Source of the DNA: Candidatus Gastranaerophilales bacterium | GTDB taxonomy: Bacteria > Cyanobacteriota > Vampirovibrionia > Gastranaerophilales > Gastranaerophilaceae | Assembly (NCBI GenBank): GCA_944324175.1 | Contig: CALUVH010000008.1 | Span: 1 to 64,000 of the forward strand | DNA: 64,000 bases | Reading direction: 5' to 3' | In this document: positions 9,862 to 58,801 of the stretch, one piece after another | Layout of the letters: every line of letters starts with the position of its first letter | Numbering within the stretch: the first letter of the stretch is position 1 | The notes under the pieces: generated by a model | Databases searched by the model: none | What the model saw: only the letters and a program-made list of their open reading frames with translations | Told to the model about the DNA's origin: nothing | Program-made: the position numbers and the translations under genes

Positions 9862-10821
9862 TTATTTTGTGACTTGTAAATTTTCTTTCAGCTTTGAGTT
9901 TTGAATAGCTTGATTTTCTTGAATTGTCAAAATCATCTCATATAGGACTTGGTTATAAGGGGTAGGAATATTATGTTTTCTCCCTAGGTTTATAACTGTG
10001 CCTGCAAACATTTCAACTTCGGTTTTTCGCCCTGCTTCTACATCTTGTAGCATTGAGGTCTTGCCCTCCGGACACATCATAGAAAGCGCTTCCAGTCCGT
10101 CTTTTACCAGATTTTCTGAATTATTTATTCCCTCAGCTTTCGCAATATTCGCAACTTCTTTCATTATGTTGGTCGCAAAGTTTATAAAAACTGAATTGTT
10201 CTGCATTTCGCCAAATGTCATCTTTAATATTGCAGATGGCTGATTTGTGCTTACATTTAACATAAATTTGCGCCAGAGCGAGTATTTTATATCTTGTGGA
10301 ATTTCATATTTTATGCCTGCTAAGTCAAAGAAATTCTTGACTTTTACAACTCTTTCATCAATGCCGGCAGAAGCTCCAAATACGAGAATGTTAAAGTCAT
10401 CATGGGTTATATATCTTCCTGTTCTAACTGCGCTATGACCTATAAAATAAGAATATAGAACTTTTGAATTCCCGTAAGTTTTTGCTATTATTTCTTCGCT
10501 GGTGACTCCGTTTAAAAGCGATAAGATCAGTGTGTTTTCACCGACAAAATTTTTAATGTTTTTTATTGCCTCGTTTAGACCGTCAAATTTTGTCGCAATT
10601 ATGATTAAGTCTGCTTCAAATCCTTTTTCTCTTGGCAATATATATTTAAATTTTAATTCTCTTCCGTTAAAAACTATTGGATTTTCAGAGTATCTTTTAA
10701 GTCTTTCTTCATCTAATAATACTCGTAAATCTACAGTCTGACTTTTTTCTATTTTATCGGCATATATACTGCCTACGGCTCCTATGCCACATACTAATAC
10801 TTTTTTAATTATTCTTTCCAT
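9862..10821 (-). CDS. Ketopantoate reductase-like (ApbA/PanE family) oxidoreductase
   Basis: A Rossmann motif opens the protein (VLVCGIGAVGSIYADKI, residues 8-24), followed by the family signatures LIIATKF near residue 75, SLLNGVTSEE near residue 100 and a helical C-terminal domain (SLWRKFMLNVSTNQPSA). In pantothenate synthesis this enzyme reduces 2-dehydropantoate with NADPH. No other pan gene is nearby, so the substrate is not certain. The ATG follows a TGC-TAGAAT extended -10 by 7 bases, without a ribosome site. Confidence 0.85.
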   Translation of the reverse strand: MERIIKKVLVCGIGAVGSIYADKIEKSQTVDLRVLLDEERLKRYSENPIVFNGRELKFKYILPREKGFEADLIIIATKFDGLNEAIKNIKNFVGENTLILSLLNGVTSEEIIAKTYGNSKVLYSYFIGHSAVRTGRYITHDDFNILVFGASAGIDERVVKVKNFFDLAGIKYEIPQDIKYSLWRKFMLNVSTNQPSAILKMTFGEMQNNSVFINFATNIMKEVANIAKAEGINNSENLVKDGLEALSMMCPEGKTSMLQDVEAGRKTEVEMFAGTVINLGRKHNIPTPYNQVLYEMILTIQENQAIQNSKLKENLQVTK

Positions 10822-10985
10822 AAAACAAATTCTAGCACAATTTTCTTGAAATCAGATTACCCTTTATATTAATTTAATTTTTTGAATGTTAATATAAATT
10901 AAGAAAAATTTTCAAAATGAGCAATAGCATTGAAAAAAAATACTTTATATATGAGTGTAGTGTTATAAATTAGTAGTGTGTTTTA

Positions 10986-12916: not shown

Positions 12917-12931
12917 TATAATTTCCTTATG
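12917..12931 (+). promoter_or_regulatory. -10 element placed for a leaderless mRNA (symporter)
   Basis: TATAAT at 12917-12922 is followed by six bases and then the ATG at 12929. No Shine-Dalgarno sequence precedes this ATG, so the transcript probably begins at the start codon. Confidence 0.5.
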
Positions 12932-14455
12932 AGTTTAGATAGCGCAATTGATACATTACTTTCGCCAATAGCCGATAAAATTTCCGGAATAATTTTTTCT
13001 TCAATTACCATAAAAGGTGTTGAAGTCCAGTTTCTTGTTGCGCTTTTAATGACAGCAGCTTTGTATTTTACTTTTAGAACCCGATTTATAGGTGTTTGGG
13101 GATTTAAGCATTCTATAAGTTTGATTACTAAAAATTATGAGCACAAGGATGTTATAAAACGCAAAAAAAAAGGTGAAGTGTCTTCATTTCAGGCACTTAC
13201 AGCAACTATTTCCGCTTCAGCAGGAATAGGTAACGTGGCAGGATCTGCTGCTGCTGTATCTATTGGTGGACCCGGAGTGATTTTTTGGATGATTATAGCC
13301 GGTTTTTTTTCAATGGCTTTGAAATTCTCAGAGGTACTTTTGGGGATAAAATTCAGAAAAGTTAATCAGGATGGAACGATAGCTGGTGGTCCTATGTATT
13401 ATATATTGGGCGGTCTTCGTGGAAAATATTTGTCTTCTGTAGCACCATATTTGGCAAAAATTTATGCGATATGTTGCGTTTTTGCAATGATTGGAGGTTG
13501 GAATCTATTTCAGATTAATGCTATGACTGCTCAAATCACTGAGGTCACAGGTGGGGAGAACAGCTTTTTTGCAAATCAAAGTTGGATATTGGGAGTAATT
13601 GTTGCCGTAATTACCTATTTTACTATAATTGGTGGTATTAAGGCTATAGGAAAATTTACATCAAAAGTTACGCCTGTAATGTGTTCTTTATATGTTGCAT
13701 CAGCCTTTATAATTTGTTTGCTTAATATTGGTCATGTGCCTGAAACTATTATGTTAATTGTGAAAGAAGCATTCAAGCCTCAAGCCTTACAGGGGGGTGC
13801 TATCGCGTGTATGTTATGGGGATTTAGGCGTGCTATGTTTGCAAATGAATCCGGTCTTGGTACTGCACCTATCGCTTTTTCTGCGGTAAAGACAAGTAAA
13901 CCGGTTGCTCAGGCTTTTATTGCAATGCTTCAGCCGTTTGTTGACACTGTGATTGTCGGTTCTGCTACGGCTTTTGTGATAGTTGTGTCAGGTGTGTATT
14001 TACAAACTCAAGGGCAACTCGTAGGAATTGAGTTAACGTCTAAAGCTTTCGGTACCGTATGTCCGTATTTCCCTTTATTGTTGACTTTTATGGCAAGTTG
14101 TTTCGTGCTTTCTACTATGCTATGTGGCTCTTACTACGGAGTGAAAAGCTGGAACTTTTTGTTTGGTGAGTCAAAATTGACAACAAAGTCTTTTCAGGTT
14201 ATATATTGTTTATTCATAATCATCGGTTCTGCCATGAATTTTAAAAGTATAATTAATCTATCTGATGCATTTACTTTATTCTTGGCTGTGCCAAACTTAA
14301 TAGCAGTATTTATGTTATCGAATGTCGTAATGAAAGAATTAAAAAGATATTGCAGAAAATATGATGTAGGATTTTTTAAAAATACAATAATCACAAATGA
14401 GGAGAAAGAGATTGATGAAAAAAGAATGTTTGGAGATAGTGAAATCAAAGTGTGA
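12929..14455 (+). CDS. Sodium:alanine symporter (AGCS family)
   Basis: A 508-residue inner-membrane transporter with about ten helices that takes up alanine or glycine with Na+. Family signatures are the long conserved block FQALTATISASAGIGNVAG near residue 90, GGPGVIFWM, GGPMYYI near residue 155 and FANESGLGTAPIA near residue 315. The ATG at 12929 follows TATAAT by six bases with no ribosome site. The end overlaps the uracil-DNA glycosylase gene by 41 bases. Confidence 0.93.
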   Translation: MSLDSAIDTLLSPIADKISGIIFSSITIKGVEVQFLVALLMTAALYFTFRTRFIGVWGFKHSISLITKNYEHKDVIKRKKKGEVSSFQALTATISASAGIGNVAGSAAAVSIGGPGVIFWMIIAGFFSMALKFSEVLLGIKFRKVNQDGTIAGGPMYYILGGLRGKYLSSVAPYLAKIYAICCVFAMIGGWNLFQINAMTAQITEVTGGENSFFANQSWILGVIVAVITYFTIIGGIKAIGKFTSKVTPVMCSLYVASAFIICLLNIGHVPETIMLIVKEAFKPQALQGGAIACMLWGFRRAMFANESGLGTAPIAFSAVKTSKPVAQAFIAMLQPFVDTVIVGSATAFVIVVSGVYLQTQGQLVGIELTSKAFGTVCPYFPLLLTFMASCFVLSTMLCGSYYGVKSWNFLFGESKLTTKSFQVIYCLFIIIGSAMNFKSIINLSDAFTLFLAVPNLIAVFMLSNVVMKELKRYCRKYDVGFFKNTIITNEEKEIDEKRMFGDSEIKV

Positions 14456-21485: not shown

Positions 21486-22787
21486 TCATGCATTTTCAGC
21501 TTTTTGAACGTCAGGAGCAAGCCCCGGTTCAAGCTCTGAGCCAGTCACAAGTTTTCTAAATGCAAATGTTGCTTTTGGAAGTGCATATGCAAGTAAGAAG
21601 CTGCTTATACCAACATTTAAAAGTATGTTGGTAGATTTTAAAATTTTAGATTTGAGCAAATAGTTTTTGAATTTTTTACCGGAAGGTGCTTTTTGCATAA
21701 ATTCTTCTATAGAATTTCTAAAATTGCCAAGCTCTTCGAAGTCAATGTAGGCACGTGGATCTCTTATATTATTTTTTAGCATTTTGACCTTTTTGAACTT
21801 ATTTGCGAGTGTAACAAACATACTATCAGGGTTTTTATCAACAAATTTTATAAGTGTTTCAGGATTATTATCTTCAGGCAAGATAAATATACCTTTTTTG
21901 ACTTTTGAGATGAAGGATTTGTCAGCTAAGATAGCAGGATCAAGGGTGACACCGCTGATTTTATTCAATGCTTTTTCTATCCATTTCGGAGCTACGAAGT
22001 TTAAAAACATCATACCGCTTAATCTAAATCCGACATCAAGTGCTTCATTTTTCTTTCTTGCGGTAGCTATTCTACCCACAGTGTAACCGCCGTCTGTTAT
22101 CATCATTTTATCTTGGGTTGATACTGATGAAAGTTTTGCTATTGAAAATCCGCCAAAAGATATGTTATTAGAATTTCCTAATTTAAAGCCATTCCATACT
22201 TTAGAAGATTCTTCGGAGCTAAAATAAGGTCTCATTATGGGGTTTTGTATTGGGCTGTTTTGTGTTTGTCTTTTTTGTTTGATTTTTTCTATGCGTTTTG
22301 CGGATGAGGCGAATATCATTTTGGGTAGGATGAAGCCCATAAATGCTATAGGGATAATTGTGGATGCCAAAAATTTATAAGATAACATTTTTTTGTATTT
22401 TTTTAGGTTTTCAGGTGAAGAAATCCTGATTAAGTCATTTGTTTCTTCTGGGGCAAGATTTTTGAATTTTTCTATATTATATTTGAGTCCCTGAAGTTTT
22501 TCTTCTTTGAATAATTTTGGATTGATTTCAGGGTTAAAACCTTTTTTCTTGATTAACCAATTCGAGATGTAATCAATTAAAGGAATGCCACCTAGCCAAA
22601 CTGCAGAAGTTGCATATTCATCCAAAAACCTTTCTCTTGCTGCAAGTTTTGCAACTTCTTTATCTTTTTTATTTTGGTTATAAGTTAAAACAATTTTTGT
22701 TGGTACTTCAATTCCGCAGTCGCGTAATAGTAAAGGATATATACTACTGTTGTTACCTATTGCTGAAATTATACTTGATATTTGCAT
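21486..22787 (-). CDS. Membrane-associated protein of unknown function
   Basis: The start at 22787 (MQISSIISAI) is chosen because AGGAG lies 10 bases upstream; further in-frame starts up to 22832 are less well placed. The 433-residue protein has hydrophobic stretches near residues 55, 140 (FLASTIIPIAFMGFILPKMI), 265 and 405 (ILLNVGISSFLLAYAL), and a Gly-Phe element ISFGGFSIAKL. I do not recognise a family. Its leader holds a 21-codon ORF and a terminator-like hairpin, so expression may be controlled by attenuation. Confidence 0.7.
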   Translation of the reverse strand: MQISSIISAIGNNSSIYPLLLRDCGIEVPTKIVLTYNQNKKDKEVAKLAARERFLDEYATSAVWLGGIPLIDYISNWLIKKKGFNPEINPKLFKEEKLQGLKYNIEKFKNLAPEETNDLIRISSPENLKKYKKMLSYKFLASTIIPIAFMGFILPKMIFASSAKRIEKIKQKRQTQNSPIQNPIMRPYFSSEESSKVWNGFKLGNSNNISFGGFSIAKLSSVSTQDKMMITDGGYTVGRIATARKKNEALDVGFRLSGMMFLNFVAPKWIEKALNKISGVTLDPAILADKSFISKVKKGIFILPEDNNPETLIKFVDKNPDSMFVTLANKFKKVKMLKNNIRDPRAYIDFEELGNFRNSIEEFMQKAPSGKKFKNYLLKSKILKSTNILLNVGISSFLLAYALPKATFAFRKLVTGSELEPGLAPDVQKAENA

Positions 22788-22847
22788 ATTTATCATTCTC
22801 CTGTTCATTTTTGTACATTCTTTTTGAGGCAAAAAAATAACCTCATT

Positions 22848-22905: not shown

Positions 22906-22971
22906 CTAAAACCCCTTCGGGATTCTATGATGTGCAAAATGAAGTTTTTGAGCAAATTTGATATTTTCCAT
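22906..22971 (-). CDS. Possible 21-residue leader peptide
   Basis: The ATG at 22971 lies six bases after the extended -10 TGC-TAGGAT, with TTGTAT 16 bases before the hexamer. It encodes MENIKFAQKLHFAHHRIPKGF and then a stop. An AGGA lies 7 bases before the ATG but overlaps the -10. The downstream hairpin with a T-run suggests a leader-peptide attenuator. Three His residues in a short span are notable. It is too short for the coding call to be secure. Confidence 0.35.
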   Translation of the reverse strand: MENIKFAQKLHFAHHRIPKGF

Positions 22972-23008
22972 GCCTCTATCCTAGCAAATAAATTAAAAAA
23001 TACAAGGG

Positions 23009-23331: not shown

Positions 23332-23372
23332 TTGCAAAATTAAAATAAAATCTGTATGATAATTATATCATG
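23332..23372 (+). promoter_or_regulatory. Promoter for a leaderless or near-leaderless relA/spoT mRNA
   Basis: TTGCAA at 23332-23337 and TATGAT at 23355-23360 are 17 bases apart, and the overlapping GATAAT at 23358-23363 lies six bases before the ATG at 23370. No ribosome site is present before the ATG. Confidence 0.5.
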
Positions 23373-25580: not shown

Positions 25581-25645
25581 ACTTAGATAATAAAGATTCT
25601 TTAACAATTTGCATAATGTAAAATCCCTGTTAATATATTATTGCT

Positions 25646-27319
25646 ATGGTTTTATTAATATCAGAAAGAGCGGAAAAGATTAGTTTTTTTGGTGAAATTT
25701 TTAGTCAAAATACACCTGCTTTTTATGTTGCTTCTGAGCTTGCTCAAGTGTTAGATATTATTAGCGTTTCTCCTCCTGATATCATAATTATTGACACGCT
25801 TTCTTCGACGGTAAAGGTTAAAAGTATAATTAGGAAAATCAATTCAGTGCTTGATAATCCTATTATTATTTTAATTGTTGAAGATAAGGTAGAAAAAGAT
25901 TTGATTAAACTTTCAAATGCTTTTATTACCGATGATATGTCAAAGGAACTTGTCGAAGCGACAATTAATGTAAATTTGAGAATGAAAAATTCTTTAGCGC
26001 AACTCTCAGATTCAAATAAGGATTTAGCTGATAGTTTGTATATGTTAAATACCCTTTATAATACAAGTTCGCAATTTGCAAGTACTTTGGATAAGAATGA
26101 ATTGATAAAATACATGGTTGAGGGGTTAGACAAATCCTTGAGCTTTTCTTTGACCTGTACGCTTTCTTTTTGTAACGAGTCTCATCCAATTTTGATTTTG
26201 AATTCTTTGTACGATATTTCAGAAGAGCTGTTAAGTGCAATAAAGCTGAGGATGATTTTTAATTATAAGTCCTTGTTTGGAGCGAATGAGCCTCCATATA
26301 ATTTGGATGAAGAAAGTTTAGAAGTTGTAAAGTACGTAAAATATCCTGCAAGTAAATTTACATTTACTTTGTTTCAGTATGATAATCTTTTTGCTCCAAT
26401 CTCTCAAGGTGATAACTTCTTTGGATGTATTGAAATTTTTAAAGATACTCATTTTTCTTCTGAAGATGCAAAATGTTTTCAAACTATAGTACAACAAGTT
26501 GCTTTACCTTTAAAAAATGCGTCACTCTATCAAGAAATTAAAGAAACAAACCAAAAGCTAGAAAAATTAGAAAGACTAAAGTCTGAATTCATCTCTATTG
26601 TTTCACATGAATTACGTACTCCGCTGACATCAATAAAAAATTCGCTGGATATTTTACATAGCGGACGTTGCGGTGAAGTTACATCTGCATCTGATAAGTT
26701 TCTTTCTATGGCAAAAAGAAATGTGCAAAGACTGTCAGGAATTATCAATGACCTGCTTGATCTTTCAAAAATAGAAGCAGGAAAAATGGATTTTCACTTT
26801 TCCAAAATTGATGTTCACAACGTTATAGAATATGTAAAATCAACTTTTGTCAATGTTGCAAAAGAAAAAGGACTTTCATTATGTGCTGATGAAACTTTGG
26901 ATTTACCATTTGTATATGCAGATTCTCAAAGATTGGAGCAGGTGCTGACTAATCTTGTTTCTAATGCCATTAAATTTACTCCATCAGGTAAAAATATTAC
27001 AATAAAATCACAGCTAATAAATGCAAAAGATGTAAAAATTGATAATTGTTTTAAAGAACTCGCAAAAAAACTTGATGGAGATTATATAATGGTTAGCGTG
27101 CTAGATGAAGGAATCGGTATTGCAGAAGAAAATCTTTTGCGTGCGTTTGATAAGTTTGCACAGATAGAAAACTCACTATCCAGAAAAGTTGGTGGCTCGG
27201 GATTAGGTCTTCCTATTGCAAAACAGCTTATTGAAGCTCATAATGGTATTATCTGGTGTGAGAGTCAGCTTGAAAAAGGATCAAAGTTTATATTTGTAAT
27301 TCCTGTAGCTGAAAATTAA
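25646..27319 (+). CDS. Sensor histidine kinase with pseudo-receiver and GAF-like N-terminus
   Basis: Residues 1-115 resemble a degenerate receiver (PPDIIIIDTLSS). Residues 140-290 look like a GAF sensor with no membrane helix, so sensing is cytoplasmic. The dimerisation/phosphoacceptor box is SIVSHELRTPLTSIKN near residue 318. The ATPase boxes follow: LVSNAIKFTPSG, VLDEGIGI and GGSGLGLPIAKQ. It is followed by a lone receiver protein, its probable partner. The ATG follows TATATT by six bases and lacks a ribosome site. Confidence 0.92.
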   Translation: MVLLISERAEKISFFGEIFSQNTPAFYVASELAQVLDIISVSPPDIIIIDTLSSTVKVKSIIRKINSVLDNPIIILIVEDKVEKDLIKLSNAFITDDMSKELVEATINVNLRMKNSLAQLSDSNKDLADSLYMLNTLYNTSSQFASTLDKNELIKYMVEGLDKSLSFSLTCTLSFCNESHPILILNSLYDISEELLSAIKLRMIFNYKSLFGANEPPYNLDEESLEVVKYVKYPASKFTFTLFQYDNLFAPISQGDNFFGCIEIFKDTHFSSEDAKCFQTIVQQVALPLKNASLYQEIKETNQKLEKLERLKSEFISIVSHELRTPLTSIKNSLDILHSGRCGEVTSASDKFLSMAKRNVQRLSGIINDLLDLSKIEAGKMDFHFSKIDVHNVIEYVKSTFVNVAKEKGLSLCADETLDLPFVYADSQRLEQVLTNLVSNAIKFTPSGKNITIKSQLINAKDVKIDNCFKELAKKLDGDYIMVSVLDEGIGIAEENLLRAFDKFAQIENSLSRKVGGSGLGLPIAKQLIEAHNGIIWCESQLEKGSKFIFVIPVAEN

Positions 27320-45867: not shown

Positions 45868-45905
45868 TTGAAAAATACTAAAAAAAATATTATAATAATA
45901 ATATG
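45868..45905 (+). promoter_or_regulatory. Complete promoter for a leaderless mRNA
   Basis: TTGAAA at 45868-45873, 17 bases, TATAAT at 45891-45896, six bases, then the ATG at 45903. This is the clearest case in the window of a consensus promoter whose start point should coincide with the start codon. Confidence 0.65.
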
Positions 45906-46880
45906 AGCACGATTAGAAGATTAAATTGTTTTGATAGACCAAAGATAAGAAAAATGATATCTTATTTAGGTGGTGAGGATGAGTTCTCGAAAGCACTCAT
46001 GCGTGAGGCATTTGTAATGTTGAGTGCGGTGTTGCCATTGAAATATCGTTTTTTGCCTGAATCTTATATATTGTTGGATGATGGAGAAATTCAAGGACTT
46101 ATTACTATTGTTCCGACTTATGGTAATCCTTATAAAATAAATATCACAAGACTTATTTTTAAACAAAATTATTATGAAGTAGGAAAACAGCTCATAGAAT
46201 TTGTACTTGCACGATTTGGAGCAAAAGGTGCAATATCATTTAATGTTATGGTCGATGAGTCTCATGATGAATTGGTTGAATTATTTAGAAGCGGTTGTGG
46301 TTTTAGACAATGCTCCTGTGAGTGCTTGTGGAAACTGGAAAATACCAAATCTCACAATATAAATTCACACTTGTTCAGATATTGTCAAAAATCTGATGCA
46401 AAAGCAGTAGCAAGACTTTTTAACGGAGAATTGGTGAGTTTATACAGACCTTCTTTAGACAGAACAAAGGAAGAGTACCAAGAGCCATTTTTTGCAGGAT
46501 TTTCAAGTTCTTATAAAAATCGCTATGTAATGGAAGAGCCTGCCAAAGGCAGAATTATCGGGTATCTTTCAATTACAACAGAAGATAATTTGAATTTTAT
46601 AATAGATTTATCAACAAATGATGGTTATGAAATCTCTTATGATGATATTTTGGACTTTGCGCTGAGTGAAATTTCAAGGCGAAAAACTGTTTTTTATGCT
46701 TTTGTGAAACAAAAAAAATATACAAAGACATCAGAAAATCTGGAGAATTATTTGCGCGCTCATAATGCAGATTTGATTCAAACTCAGCTTGTGCTTGTGA
46801 AAGACTTTTACCGTCCTATCAAACAAAGTGAAAATATTTTACAGGTGTTTTTGTTCGGCGAGCAAGGGGTATCGACTTAA
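45903..46880 (+). CDS. GNAT-like protein, possibly two acetyltransferase domains
   Basis: The 325-residue protein looks like two tandem GNAT-like halves: YILLDDGEIQGLITIVPT near residue 55 and RIIGYLSITTEDNLNFIID near residue 215, each followed by helix-strand patterns typical of acyl-CoA binding. No catalytic residue is certain. It is divergent from the alcohol dehydrogenases and uses a probable leaderless start. Function is unassigned. Confidence 0.55.
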   Translation: MSTIRRLNCFDRPKIRKMISYLGGEDEFSKALMREAFVMLSAVLPLKYRFLPESYILLDDGEIQGLITIVPTYGNPYKINITRLIFKQNYYEVGKQLIEFVLARFGAKGAISFNVMVDESHDELVELFRSGCGFRQCSCECLWKLENTKSHNINSHLFRYCQKSDAKAVARLFNGELVSLYRPSLDRTKEEYQEPFFAGFSSSYKNRYVMEEPAKGRIIGYLSITTEDNLNFIIDLSTNDGYEISYDDILDFALSEISRRKTVFYAFVKQKKYTKTSENLENYLRAHNADLIQTQLVLVKDFYRPIKQSENILQVFLFGEQGVST

Positions 46881-48312: not shown

Positions 48313-48327
48313 TATAATTAAAGAATG
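48313..48327 (+). promoter_or_regulatory. -10 element for leaderless HTH gene
   Basis: TATAAT at 48313-48318, six bases, then the ATG at 48325. No ribosome site is present. Confidence 0.5.
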
Positions 48328-48570: not shown

Positions 48571-49568
48571 TTGTCCACAAATGATTTCATCTCATTTAAA
48601 GATATATTAAATTTCATCAAATAAAACCCACCGATTGCAGTAAGCATAAGCATTAAAATTGCTTGATGTACCGTAGATACAGCGAGTGCTGTAGATTTTT
48701 GAATATGAAAAATTCCGAGTGCAAGGATATAAGCGTATTGATAAGGACCGAGAAAGACCGATGTTGAAGGAAGCATTGTTGAAAAAGAGATTAAACTTAT
48801 TACGAACAATCCTGCTGCAAATCTTAACCCTAAATCAAAACTGTCTACAATTAAATATGCAACATAGCATTCTATTCCCCAGATAATAAGACTTGTCAAA
48901 AATGCTATTATTGTGCATTTGAAATTGTCTAATACTTCAAATCCTTCCATAAAAGAGTTAATATAAGAACAAATTTTAATTATAAAAGATTTTAAAGGCT
49001 GAGAAATTTTTGACGGTAACTTTTCGGCTAATCCTGTTGATTTTTTACAAATCAAATCTATTTTGTTAAATTTAAAAATAAGATAGAAAACGAGAAGGCT
49101 CCCTATAAACAGTGTACCAATACCATAGGCAAGGTTCAATATCCACTGTTCTCTAAAGTACATTAAAACTGCTGCCAGAAGTATTAAGAAAACACATATT
49201 CCATCCAGAGTTCTTTCAAGAATAATGGAGCCGAAAACTTTCATTTTCTTCTCTTCCTTAACTGATCCAAGATAGTATGCTCGATAAACATCCCCCGCCC
49301 TTGCTGGCAGAAAAATGTTAAGCATACTGCCTACGGTGAAAACTTCTCCAAGATGTAGGCTGGAATATTTGGGATTATTCAACAGCAATGCCTTCCATCT
49401 TATTCCTCGAAGATAGAGAGTAAGCACATACAAAGGTACTATGTAAATCATGTTTTTAAAATTAAAATCTTTGAATGTAGAAATTAATTCATGCCAGTTT
49501 ATCTTATAAAAAATAATTCCCAGCAGAGCTATTGTTATTATTAGTGCTACAATTTTTCTCTTTTTCAT
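48567..49568 (-). CDS. Lysylphosphatidylglycerol synthetase TM-domain/flippase-like protein (UPF0104)
   Basis: A 333-residue inner-membrane protein with about eight helices. Family signs are YVLTLYLRGIRWKALL near residue 46, GEVFTVGSMLNIFLPARAGDVYRAYYLG near residue 73 and FSTMLPSTSVFLGPYQYAYILAL near residue 262. Relatives are flippases or hopanoid/glycolipid-linked proteins. The ATG follows TGA-TAGAAT by six bases without a ribosome site. Confidence 0.87.
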   Translation of the reverse strand: MKKRKIVALIITIALLGIIFYKINWHELISTFKDFNFKNMIYIVPLYVLTLYLRGIRWKALLLNNPKYSSLHLGEVFTVGSMLNIFLPARAGDVYRAYYLGSVKEEKKMKVFGSIILERTLDGICVFLILLAAVLMYFREQWILNLAYGIGTLFIGSLLVFYLIFKFNKIDLICKKSTGLAEKLPSKISQPLKSFIIKICSYINSFMEGFEVLDNFKCTIIAFLTSLIIWGIECYVAYLIVDSFDLGLRFAAGLFVISLISFSTMLPSTSVFLGPYQYAYILALGIFHIQKSTALAVSTVHQAILMLMLTAIGGFYLMKFNISLNEMKSFVDN

Positions 49569-49604
49569 AGCCTAATTCTATCATAAATATTTCGTAAAAA
49601 TTAC

Positions 49605-53289: not shown

Positions 53290-54456
53290 CTTTTTAGTTG
53301 TGAAATTTGGAACTTCATATAAAAATTTATCAGAAATAGATTTCCATAATCGAAAAAATTCTTTTGTTTGTTTTTTCGCAATATCTTTGTTTTTGATTAT
53401 TAACATATTCTCATCATTTGCATATTCAGATGCACCAGTCCAATTTGTAGATGCAATTATTGTGTATTCTTCGTCAAAAACAGCACTTTTCTGATGCATT
53501 TTCCCATTCCAATTTTCAATCTTTACAGGGATACCTGCCTCTCGTAATTTAAAGATTTGTGCTTTTGGTTCTTTTATCAATGTTGCATCTAAAATTATTT
53601 TTATATCAACCCCTCTATTATGTGCATTAATTAATGCATCAGTAATCCAATAATTTGTAAGATAAAACATTGAGATATAAATTCTTTTACGGGATTTATT
53701 AATTAGAGGCAGCACACCTTTTGAAATAGCTCTATCCATAGGAGAAAATAAAACAGAAATTTTTGTATCAGGCTTTATTTGAATATCAGTTTTATTCGGT
53801 ATCACATCTTTTAATACATGAAATTTGTTACCTTCAAACATTTGTGAAAATTCTTTTTCATATATTTGTGCAAGGTCTTGTGAATAGATAACAACAGAAT
53901 TATTAGCATTAAAAGTCATACAGCTATCCGTAATATTTGTAGAACCTGTCCAAATATATTTACCATCGACTATTACAAACTTGTTATGCATTAATGCAGA
54001 TTGAGATCTCGTAAATTTTTCATCAAATCGTCTTTGAGCTATTGGGACAAAAACATCTGTTTTAAAACCAAATTCTTTAATGATTTCCTCTGTATCAGGG
54101 TAAAGTGATGTTCCATAATCATCTACAACACCTCTTATAATTACTCCTCTAGCTTTAGCTCTTTTGAGAGCATTGATAATTTTGTCTTGTCCGGCAAAGC
54201 CATATGCTGCAATATCAATCGAAGATTCAGCGTTATTAATTAATGCTTCTAATGATTTGCTCACATCGTTTATTGATTTATTTACAGGATGTTTTTTATT
54301 TACTGGATTAACAAAATATAATTCAATTTTTTGCTTTTCTAATCTGTTTAGAAACACCTTTTCGTTATGTTTTTGAATTAGACTGACAAAGTCCGAAGCG
54401 TAAGAGATATTCACTGATATCGCAGTTATTAAAACTGATAAAATTATCCTTTTCAT
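53281..54456 (-). CDS. Secreted phospholipase D-like protein with two HKD motifs
   Basis: A signal peptide (MKRIILSVLITAISVNISYAS) is followed by two PLD repeats. Their catalytic motifs are HNKFVIVDGKYIWTGSTN near residue 170 and HQKSAVFDEEYTIIASTNWT near residue 330, both complete except that the second Asp shifts to VFDEE. Such proteins are phospholipases, cardiolipin synthases or nucleases (Nuc type). The two-repeat secreted form fits a periplasmic phosphodiesterase. The ATG follows TATTAT by six bases with no ribosome site. Confidence 0.88.
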   Translation of the reverse strand: MKRIILSVLITAISVNISYASDFVSLIQKHNEKVFLNRLEKQKIELYFVNPVNKKHPVNKSINDVSKSLEALINNAESSIDIAAYGFAGQDKIINALKRAKARGVIIRGVVDDYGTSLYPDTEEIIKEFGFKTDVFVPIAQRRFDEKFTRSQSALMHNKFVIVDGKYIWTGSTNITDSCMTFNANNSVVIYSQDLAQIYEKEFSQMFEGNKFHVLKDVIPNKTDIQIKPDTKISVLFSPMDRAISKGVLPLINKSRKRIYISMFYLTNYWITDALINAHNRGVDIKIILDATLIKEPKAQIFKLREAGIPVKIENWNGKMHQKSAVFDEEYTIIASTNWTGASEYANDENMLIIKNKDIAKKQTKEFFRLWKSISDKFLYEVPNFTTKKLE

Positions 54457-54493
54457 AAATTAATAATACTACTAACATAACTTTTTTAAAATA

Positions 54494-56010: not shown

Positions 56011-57381
56011 TTAGAAAATTCTGTTAACCAAAAAAGTTGATACTAGGGTAAAGTATACCGCCAACCCTATAACATCAATAGTGGTAGCGATAACCGGACC
56101 TGAAGCTACAGCGGGATCTACATTAAGACTTTTGAGTGCAAAAGGTGTAAAGGTTCCGATAACTGTGGCCATTGTCATATTAACAGCCATAGCAACGCCG
56201 ACGACGATGCCAAGCTCAATATTATGTTGCCAACCCCAAGTTGCGAGTGTTACCAAAAGCCCAAATATACTCCCGATGGCAAGTCCGATAAACATTTCTC
56301 TAAACATATGGTGAAAAGCGGAGCTCAGAGTGACTTGTCCTGTAGAAAGCCCGCGTACCATAAGTGTTATGCTTTGAGTTCCGATGTTACCGCCTAGCCC
56401 TGCCAAAAGTGGCATAAATATTGCGATTATCGGTAACGCATTTAGTGTGTGATCAAAGTGATGAGCAACATTTACTGCAATAAATTCACCGAGCAGGGTT
56501 ATGAAAAGCCAAGGAGTTCTTGCTCTTATTGCTTGGAAGATGTTACCCGATAGAATTTCATCTTCATCTACGACCTCAGTTGAAATACCTGAAGATTGGT
56601 AGATTTCTTCCGTGGTTTCTTCTTCAAACAGGTCATGTACGTCATCCCAAGTAATCATCCCCTTTAATCTATTGTATAAATCAACGACAGGGAGGGCGTT
56701 ATACTGGTATTTCATAAACTCATCAGTAATATAATCGCTATAATCATCTACATGAAGTTTTACGATATCACTTATCATAATTTCTTCAACAGTTTTTGTA
56801 ATTGGGGAAGTAAGCAGTTTTCTGAGCGAAACAACTCCCAGTAAATGGTTTTGCTTATCAACAACATAGACGTAATATAATTCCATGTTATCTTTTTCCG
56901 CTTTTATTCGAATGTGGTTTAACACATCTTGGACTGTCATGTCAGAATTTACAGTAAGTACAGTAGGGTTCATAATACCGCCTGCTGTATCTTCGTTATA
57001 GGTTAGAAGTTCTCTGACTTCATCAGAGAATTTTTGCGGTAATTTATCAAGATATGTCTCACTTTCATCCTCTTCCATATCCCCAAGCACGTCAGCAGCA
57101 GCATCGTGTGGCAAGCGGGTGATAATCTTTGATGCCATTTCCTCGTCAATATCTCCGAGTAATTCCACTTGCATTTGAGGGTTAAGATACTCAATGAGAT
57201 CAGCGGCTTCTTCAATATCGAGAAGTTTAAAACACTTTAGCCGCTCTTCCGGTTTTAATTCCTGAAAAATGTCTGCCAAATCCGCAACATGATAGCTGGC
57301 GAGCTCTTCTTTTAACTGGCTTAGAGTCTCGTCATCCATTATTTCTCGTAAGCGTTCAACTATATTAGGAATGTTTATCAT
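56011..57381 (-). CDS. mgtE: Magnesium transporter MgtE
   Basis: The 456-residue protein has an N-terminal MgtE_N superhelix (LREIMDDETLSQLKEELASYHVADLADIF), two CBS domains (MNPTVLTVNSDMTVQDVLNHI near residue 137; EIMISDIVKLHVDDYSD near residue 200) and five helices with GGNIGTQSITLMVRG near residue 340 and VDPAVASGPVIATTIDVIGL near residue 428. It is a Mg2+-gated Mg2+ channel. The ATG lies six bases after TATAAT, so no M-box-type leader is possible. Confidence 0.96.
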   Translation of the reverse strand: MINIPNIVERLREIMDDETLSQLKEELASYHVADLADIFQELKPEERLKCFKLLDIEEAADLIEYLNPQMQVELLGDIDEEMASKIITRLPHDAAADVLGDMEEDESETYLDKLPQKFSDEVRELLTYNEDTAGGIMNPTVLTVNSDMTVQDVLNHIRIKAEKDNMELYYVYVVDKQNHLLGVVSLRKLLTSPITKTVEEIMISDIVKLHVDDYSDYITDEFMKYQYNALPVVDLYNRLKGMITWDDVHDLFEEETTEEIYQSSGISTEVVDEDEILSGNIFQAIRARTPWLFITLLGEFIAVNVAHHFDHTLNALPIIAIFMPLLAGLGGNIGTQSITLMVRGLSTGQVTLSSAFHHMFREMFIGLAIGSIFGLLVTLATWGWQHNIELGIVVGVAMAVNMTMATVIGTFTPFALKSLNVDPAVASGPVIATTIDVIGLAVYFTLVSTFLVNRIF

Positions 57382-57387
57382 AACTAA

Positions 57388-57393
57388 ATTATA
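57388..57393 (-). promoter_or_regulatory. -10 element for leaderless mgtE
   Basis: TATAAT on the minus strand ends six bases before the mgtE ATG at 57381. The divergent prepilin promoter lies about 25 bases away, and the palindromic TTGCAA at 57415-57420 lies between the two. Confidence 0.5.
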
Positions 57394-57414: not shown

Positions 57415-57442
57415 TTGCAAACTTCAAAAAATATGCTATACT
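57415..57442 (+). promoter_or_regulatory. Promoter of the prepilin leader transcript
   Basis: TTGCAA at 57415-57420, 16 bases, then TATACT at 57437-57442, extended by TG two bases before it. The transcript should start at about 57449, exactly on an ATG that opens an in-frame upstream extension of the prepilin ORF. Confidence 0.6.
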
Positions 57443-57448
57443 TTACCT

Positions 57449-57691
57449 ATGAAAATTACAGCTCGTGAAAAACAAAATAGTTTAAGGATGTTGACAGTAA
57501 TAGCTGGCTCAAAACCTTTGTACCACGTGGTTTCCACGGGGGGGGGGGTAACCTCTAGGGGCTTGATATATGGGCATTTGCGCCATATTGGAATAAACAC
57601 AAGTAGCAATACTTGTGTGCTTTGCTATGCAAAAAATTACAAAAATCATATTAGAGGAATAAAAAAGAAAGGAAACGAAGGAGGTAAGAAT
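57449..57691 (+). other. Structured 243-base leader with in-frame upstream ORF and G11 tract
   Basis: An ATG at 57449 at the predicted transcript start reads in frame for 81 codons into the prepilin start at 57692. The leader holds a run of eleven G at 57538-57548, the palindrome CCACGTGG, an ATATGG/CCATAT hairpin and a perfect 9-bp hairpin ACACAAGTA / TACTTGTGT at 57597-57618. The encoded 81 residues resemble no known domain, so it may be regulatory RNA rather than coding. Confidence 0.55.
57538..57548 (+). repeat. Homopolymeric G11 tract
   Basis: Eleven consecutive G in a genome of low GC content, located 89 bases after the predicted transcript start and 143 bases before the prepilin ATG. 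Such tracts change length by slippage and act as phase-variation switches in other bacteria. Confidence 0.8.
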
Positions 57692-58801
57692 ATGATTGCA
57701 AAATTAACGAAACACAAAACCGCATTTACACTGTCTGAGGGTGGTCGAAGACCACTTTTGAACTTGGGTCAATGTCGAACTGCATTTACTTTAGCTGAGG
57801 TGTTAATCACGCTGAGCGTAATCGGCATAGTCGCAGCGTTGACAATTCCAAGCATGATAGAAAACCACAATAATAAGGCTTGGTCAACCGCAAAAGACTT
57901 ATGGGACAAAAAACTAGTGGAAGCAACACGTCAAATGAATATCGACGGCGTAATGACAGGAGTAGCGAGCAGTACAGAAGATTACATGAACTATTTTAAG
58001 AAGTATGTAAAAGTAATCAAAACCTGTGAAAACGATAAATTAGAAAACTGCTACGCCCCAAAAATAGTTCAAACAGCAGGTGAGGATGTTGAAGTTAGCA
58101 TTTTGAAACGTTCAGGAAATTTAGGACACCAAGATTGGAATACTAACACTATGGGGTTCGTAATCGCAGACGGTACAACAGTAGTAATGGCATACAATCC
58201 GAATTGTAACAGCGTCGACCCATTCAGCGCAGAAGGTCAAAGCGGTCAGGTGGGTTGCATGAGTATGTTGATAGATGTAAACGGAAAGAAAGGTCCAAAT
58301 AGAGTAGGGGATGATATAGAACTAAAGAATGCAACAATATCAGATTGCGATATGCAATTTGGAGATAAATGCATGGCAGCAAGTGACATTTATCCAATAA
58401 CACCAATAAACACCTGCGACGGAAGTGCAGATTTAGAATACGATGATCGAGGAAGCACAAACAGGCTTTGTGCAACAAACTATTGGGCAGGGGCGAAGAA
58501 GGAATGCGCAACAAATGGAATGCGCTTACCATCTGGACAAGAACTGGCGGATGTAGCGACCTACATTTACAAACAGGAATCCAATCCGATAGGAGCAACA
58601 GAAGAACGCGGAGACATAACCCCAGACAGAACTCGAGCAGCAGAACTCAATTGGTCTATCAGCTGGAACTATTGGTCGAGTGAGCCTTCTATCATCACAA
58701 GTCGCGGTGGTTGTGAGCGACGCTTTATGTCTTTTGGTACTTACTGGGACAATGTTGGCTACTCGGATGAAGCTTATTACCGCGCTAGGTGTTTTAAATA
58801 A
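57692..58801 (+). CDS. Prepilin-like protein with duplicated leader motif and lectin-like tail
   Basis: A strong GGAGG lies before the ATG at 57692. The leader reads KTAFTLSEGGRRPLLNLGQC and then TAFTLAEVLITLSVIGIVAAL, so the prepilin site occurs twice, separated by a short insert that contains a hairpin. The following 85 residues match the gene at 24-1049 with about three changes. The lectin-like domain has NYWAGAKKEC, MRLPSGQELADVATYIYKQ and NYWSSEPS and ends YYRARCF. The tail between them differs almost completely from the paralogue and is 3 codons longer. A strong terminator follows. Confidence 0.88.
   Translation: MIAKLTKHKTAFTLSEGGRRPLLNLGQCRTAFTLAEVLITLSVIGIVAALTIPSMIENHNNKAWSTAKDLWDKKLVEATRQMNIDGVMTGVASSTEDYMNYFKKYVKVIKTCENDKLENCYAPKIVQTAGEDVEVSILKRSGNLGHQDWNTNTMGFVIADGTTVVMAYNPNCNSVDPFSAEGQSGQVGCMSMLIDVNGKKGPNRVGDDIELKNATISDCDMQFGDKCMAASDIYPITPINTCDGSADLEYDDRGSTNRLCATNYWAGAKKECATNGMRLPSGQELADVATYIYKQESNPIGATEERGDITPDRTRAAELNWSISWNYWSSEPSIITSRGGCERRFMSFGTYWDNVGYSDEAYYRARCFK
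58655..58795 (+). other. Candidate variable tail of prepilin
   Basis: From the Trp at 58652-58654 to the shared CGCGCTAGGTGTTTT, 25 of the 32 central codons end in a pyrimidine. The segment is nearly unrelated to the equivalent tail at 909-1037, while flanks on both sides are almost identical. The 3-codon length difference means the two do not come from a single unchanged template. Confidence 0.4.

Follow-up and report, generated by a model that had tools for sequence, protein, structure and literature searches.

The window analysed here is a stretch of 64,000 nucleotides on contig 8 of a Candidatus Gastranaerophilales genome (1.68 Mb in 38 contigs, 97% complete). On its plus strand, the best -35 match, TTGAAA (5/6) at 45868..45873, lies 17 bp before a -10 hexamer, TATAAT, at 45891..45896, which is followed after 6 bp by the ATG of a predicted leaderless gene (45903..46880). 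The product is GNAT-like, with a weak match to GNAT acetyltransferases, and its orthologs in most genomes of the family align from residue 1 to 3. A sequence-only reading of the window had listed ten ATGs without a ribosome site that lie exactly six bases behind a TANNNT hexamer. The spacing was recovered for nine of these, namely 12929, 25646, 45903, 48325, and 57449 on the plus strand and 22971, 49568, 54456, and 57381 on the minus strand; the tenth, 23370, has GATAAT at six bases and TATGAT at nine in the printed upstream region. For 10821 on the minus strand, a spacing of seven bases had been given and is indeed present. A search with Rfam found three tRNAs in the window and matched nothing else.

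For several of these starts, the placement of the hexamer is shared by relatives. The sodium:alanine symporter gene at 12929 (+) has TATAAT at 12917..12922, 6 bp before its ATG, and TANNNT lies at spacing 6 or 7 in 24 of 26 orthologs; in a second, wider set of 29 that includes the genome's own copy, 24 keep the hexamer 6-8 bases before the ATG, with widely diverged sequence upstream. The histidine kinase gene at 25646 (+) carries a candidate -10, TATATT, at 25634..25639, 6 bp before the ATG, and an alternative one, TGT-TAATAT, 9 bp before it; 30 of its 34 orthologs have TANNNT at 6 or 7, 27 of them with TGn. The gene at 10821 (-), of the ketopantoate reductase family, has an extended -10, TGC-TAGAAT, with the hexamer at 10829..10834, 7 bp before the ATG, and TANNNT recurs at 6 or 7 in 12 of 17 orthologs (10 with TGn). 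RelA/SpoT homologues, with identities of up to 96%, are found in Candidatus Gastranaerophilales assemblies, and for the gene at 23370 (+) 72 of 80 relatives share the order TTGnAA, spacer, TATnAT, 9 bp, ATG, which corresponds to TATGAT at 23355..23360 in the window; TANNNT at 6 or 7 occurs in 57 of the 80 loci. Since the conserved -10 lies nine bases before the ATG, the relA leader would be zero to about 3 nt long. When these four genes are pooled, TANNNT is found at 6 or 7 in 123 of 157 ortholog starts and a Shine-Dalgarno (SD) sequence of 5+ bases in only two; for the SD-led neighbours at 14415, 27399, 31327, and 32347, TANNNT occurs at these spacings in 0 of 85.

The start of mgtE at 57381 (-), 6 bp behind TATAAT at 57388..57393, is supported in another way, because nearly all full-length family orthologs of MgtE align from residue 1-2, and in many cases the open frame extends beyond the protein by just a few codons. 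The earlier assignment of mgtE and the kinase gene to a leaderless class is retained, and relA/spoT either belongs there too or carries a leader no longer than about 3 nt. Three further starts have candidate elements 6 bp upstream: TATAAT at 48313..48318 (+) before the ATG at 48325 of a small HTH-like gene (81 aa, weak DUF6471 match), the extended -10 TGA-TAGAAT, hexamer at 49575..49580 (-), before the ATG at 49568 of a gene of the LPG synthase TM family, and TATTAT at 54463..54468 (-) before the ATG at 54456 of a PLD-like gene. The last hexamer lies between a tRNA-Arg and the ATG, and as this ATG is only 37 bp behind the tRNA, on the same strand, the mRNA might arise by tRNA processing. In the segment 53281-54567 (-), the PLD-family gene directly after tRNA-Arg shares its first 28 residues with other PLD paralogs of the genome, and could be a mobile or duplicated gene.

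Two of the listed ATGs are not the gene starts they had been taken for. The ATG at 57449 (+), 6 bp behind TATACT at 57437..57442, sits in the leader of a pilin-like gene that starts at 57692 with a strong SD (GAAGGAGGTAAGAAT-ATG, site GAAGGAGGT). This SD is conserved in the seven paralogs in which the site was readable, and in most of them stop codons interrupt the upstream frame; in the translated ORF from 57449, the prepilin-type motif first appears at residue 112. The ATG at 22971 (-), 6 bp behind TAGGAT at 22978..22983, opens merely a 21-codon ORF (MENIKFAQKLHFAHHRIPKGF, then a stop) in a different frame from the gene at 21486-22796, which begins near 22796 and has a GGAGA-type site in its orthologs. 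Another candidate, 10986, which is not on the list, has TANNNT at six bases, but the hexamer is found there in 0 of 14 orthologs.

Both regions have features of their own. The pilin-like family (57692-58801, +, with its leader at 57505-57691; also 24-1049, +) counts at least 28 copies in the genome, many of which lie at contig ends; stops interrupt several of them. A leader of ~190 bp, followed by a strong SD, is conserved among several copies. The segment 22797-22983 (-) contains a -10-like site, the 21-codon ORF, and a hairpin followed by a T-run, after which comes the SD-led gene at 22796; this arrangement is possibly a leader peptide with an attenuator.

Beyond the window, the spacing was counted in stretches totalling 864 kb, roughly half of the genome, in which 720 genes were called by a home-made caller based on a hexamer coding model without start signals as input. 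A strong hexamer was defined as TANNNT with at least 5/6 matches to TATAAT and was counted before all plausible start codons. Where the sequence-only reading had predicted a peak at six bases in a genome-wide count against shuffled upstream regions, a sharp peak at 6-7 appeared, restricted to ATG and found mainly at genes that head a transcription unit (TU-first genes). For TU-first ATGs, the counts at spacings 0-15 were 7, 10, 3, 4, 9, 2, 38, 22, 2, 11, 8, 4, 9, 8, 9, and 10, i.e., 38 at spacing 6 and 22 at spacing 7 as against 6.9 elsewhere (P ~1e-16 for spacing 6 versus other spacings), with spacings 5 and 8 nearly empty at two each. Genes with an intermediate gap had 11 strong hexamers at spacing six, as against about 1.5. 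In the same 864 kb, the peak was absent from GTG/TTG starts, in-frame interior ATGs, and operon-internal genes. In 200 dinucleotide shuffles of 793 upstream regions, strong hexamers at six bases numbered 9.9 +/- 3.3 (maximum 18), and 49 were observed; for any TANNNT, the shuffles gave 32.9 +/- 5.0 (maximum 49) and the observed number was 63. When TANNNT was counted before every ATG, gene start or not, no spacing peak was seen, because true starts are a small minority of all ATGs; limiting the count to gene starts is needed. The excess over background amounts to ~53 starts in 864 kb, or ~11% (about one in nine) of TU-first genes. Scaled to a whole genome, this would give ~100 leaderless genes next to a majority with an SD, a low estimate given the strict hexamer rule.

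Features that had played no part in candidate selection were then assessed in 78 candidates. An extended -10 (TGn, with the TG one base upstream of the hexamer) was present in 32 of these, with 6.6 expected, and a TG another two bases upstream, as in a TRTGn motif, in 19 (5.2 expected). A TTG -35 at a spacing of exactly 17 bp was found in 17 candidates as against 2.4 expected, other spacings being not much raised. By sequence, TGn together with the 17-bp -35 indicates that the hexamers are real promoter elements. The proposed division into two translation-start classes is likewise reflected in the SD: 5+ bases occur in two of 87 leaderless candidates versus 309 of 633 other genes (474 of the 633 have 4+ bases), and in 44% of all genes taken together. 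As no 16S gene was found in the assembly of this genome, the anti-SD was taken from two relatives of the same family, whose 16S 3' ends are intact (GGATCACCTCC/GGATCACCTCCT); SD initiation is therefore retained, and the lineage has not lost SD.

The reading that we favour, at a probability of about 0.88, is that around a tenth of TU-first genes are leaderless and transcribed from promoters of the housekeeping sigma factor, side by side with SD-led genes. The promoter would consist of a TATAAT-type -10, often TGn-extended and often with a TTG -35 at 17 bp, as for an ordinary housekeeping sigma. RNA synthesis would begin at the A of the ATG or 1-2 bases from it, the resulting mRNA would have neither a 5' leader nor an SD, and ribosomes, e.g., as 70S particles, would load directly on the 5'-terminal AUG. 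About half of the other genes, many operon-internal ones among them, have a clear SD and would be read by the same ribosomes. Strict leaderlessness is not general, because the relA -10 lies at nine bases.

Three other explanations were weighed. Bacterial RNA polymerase picks its start sites across several bases, and the promoters may thus be real with transcription starting a few bases off, giving leaders of ~1-5 nt and non-SD initiation instead of strict leaderlessness. This is rather unlikely as an account of the class: a peak that covers both spacing 6 and spacing 7 would fit it, as would the conserved relA element, but the sharpness of the preference, with its nearly empty flanks, points to selection for transcripts that begin on the ATG itself, and the restriction to ATG fits recognition of a 5'-terminal AUG. 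That the AT-rich hexamer is a translational signal and no promoter, serving, e.g., for binding of ribosomal protein S1 or as an unstructured region, is very improbable; AT-rich upstream signals have been proposed to work via S1 in some phyla (PMC5397173, PMC3160421), but neither TGn nor a -35 at exactly 17 bp has any part in S1 binding, both being features of promoters, and the signal is absent from operon-internal genes. Chance matches in an AT-rich genome would place any TANNNT at six bases before ~33 of the 793 tested ATGs, so that some individual sites are fortuitous; 22971, 57449, and 10986 do not withstand closer testing. For the class in its entirety, chance is refuted by the excess of strong hexamers over shuffled regions, by the 52 versus 8 matches of the spacing control described below, and by placement conserved in orthologs.

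The distribution of leaderless candidates among relatives was assessed from whole-genome counts of TGNTANAAT-N6-ATG, with a 12-base spacing as control. The genome of the window has 52 matches at six bases and 8 at twelve, six genomes of the same genus have 327 versus 58 in sum, and thirty other genomes of the family have 1,598 versus 401, with six exceeding twelve in each. Among the other families of the class, the ratios are 192/53 (f31), 33/8 (f26), 147/58 (f2), 33/14 (f28), 181/120 (f29), 29/26 (f27), 36/35 (f30), and 23/30 (f32). A strong signal runs through the whole family; some neighbouring families have it as well, and in others it is weak or missing. Direct spacing profiles of ~100 kb per genome agree with the counts for the stronger cases, the excess at spacings 6 and 7 in first genes being 22% in G207, 14% in G003, and 13% in G084; in G057 and G184 of the same family, the excess was not significant in these small samples. 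From other families of the phylum, four samples were profiled directly over ~100 kb each and gave no signal. In a phylum-wide count, which used a reversed-pattern control, several families exceed that control, and the signal may thus also occur elsewhere in the phylum. The clearest case is family f5, outside the class, where TGNTANAAT-N6-ATG occurs 23, 17, and 31 times in G004, G010, and G018, as against 1-2 times for the reversed control; f5 is a possible second lineage with leaderless genes.

Comparable systems have been described elsewhere. Bacterial TA-led genes carry a TANNNT, -10-like signal from ~12 bp upstream of the start codon and occur beside SD-led genes (Zheng et al. 2011, PMC3160421); the candidates described here resemble them in both respects, and differ in a signal that is closer to full TATAAT and accompanied by TGn and a -35. 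In Mycobacterium tuberculosis, start sites coincide with the start codon downstream of TANNNT (Cortes et al. 2013, PMC3898074), and the combination of a TANNNT -10 just before the start with both leaderless and leadered mRNAs is the one predicted here from sequence. TGn is found in 7% of the M. tuberculosis TANNNT promoters, the -35 is not conserved, and GTG is equally frequent in leaderless and leadered genes (PMC3898074), whereas here TGn reaches ~40%, a -35 can be recognised, and the starts are all ATG. The use of ATG alone matches leaderless translation in E. coli, reported as restricted to AUG according to the discussion in PMC3898074. As cited in StartLink (PMC9581028), GeneMarkS-2 assigns mixed leaderless and leadered transcription to 21.6% of bacterial species, and this genome would be of the same kind, with both modes predicted. 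Many Cyanobacteria use neither SD-led nor leaderless genes, in a survey that predates Gastranaerophilales genomes (PMC3160421), and for most cyanobacterial genes the upstream signal is very weak and the mechanism unknown (PMC9581028). No report of leaderless genes in Melainabacteria, Gastranaerophilales, or Vampirovibrio was found in the open-access papers that were searched; the mechanism is known, and the lineage appears to be new as its host. The result adds a predicted mixed leaderless/SD translation system to these uncultured, non-photosynthetic gut relatives of cyanobacteria, and the spacing rule can be put to practical use when gene starts are annotated in several hundred genomes. With a strong signal in one family, a signal in some neighbouring families, and none in others, the group forms a natural series for the gain or loss of leaderless genes.

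A compact arrangement of two such starts is found on the palindrome TATAATTATA (L019:2584-2603; G000:C5:22584-22603), where the genes for guanylate kinase and for a histidine kinase diverge, with their start codons at a distance of 14 bp; each direction reads TATAAT, 6 bp, ATG. Of 239 family genomes, 45, from 14 genera, contain the motif CATnnTATAATTATAnnATG, and none has the reversed pattern. Among 20 inspected CATnnTATAATTATAnnATG loci, the guanylate kinase/histidine kinase pair accounts for nine and other divergent pairs for a few, and seven represent one site that has a long gene on one side only. The 20-bp CATnnTATAATTATAnnATG may, with about even odds, represent a minimal leaderless design, in which a symmetric 10-bp element with overlapping -10 boxes would serve two divergent leaderless genes and couple their expression by competition, as RNA polymerase initiates in one direction at a time. 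Other predicted divergent leaderless pairs in the genome include DnaG with a TrmB-like regulator and MTHFR with a sulfate permease. In L253-L259, a palindromic unit of the CATnnTATAATTATAnnATG type precedes a conserved gene of ~292 aa, and its other side has no more than a short ORF.
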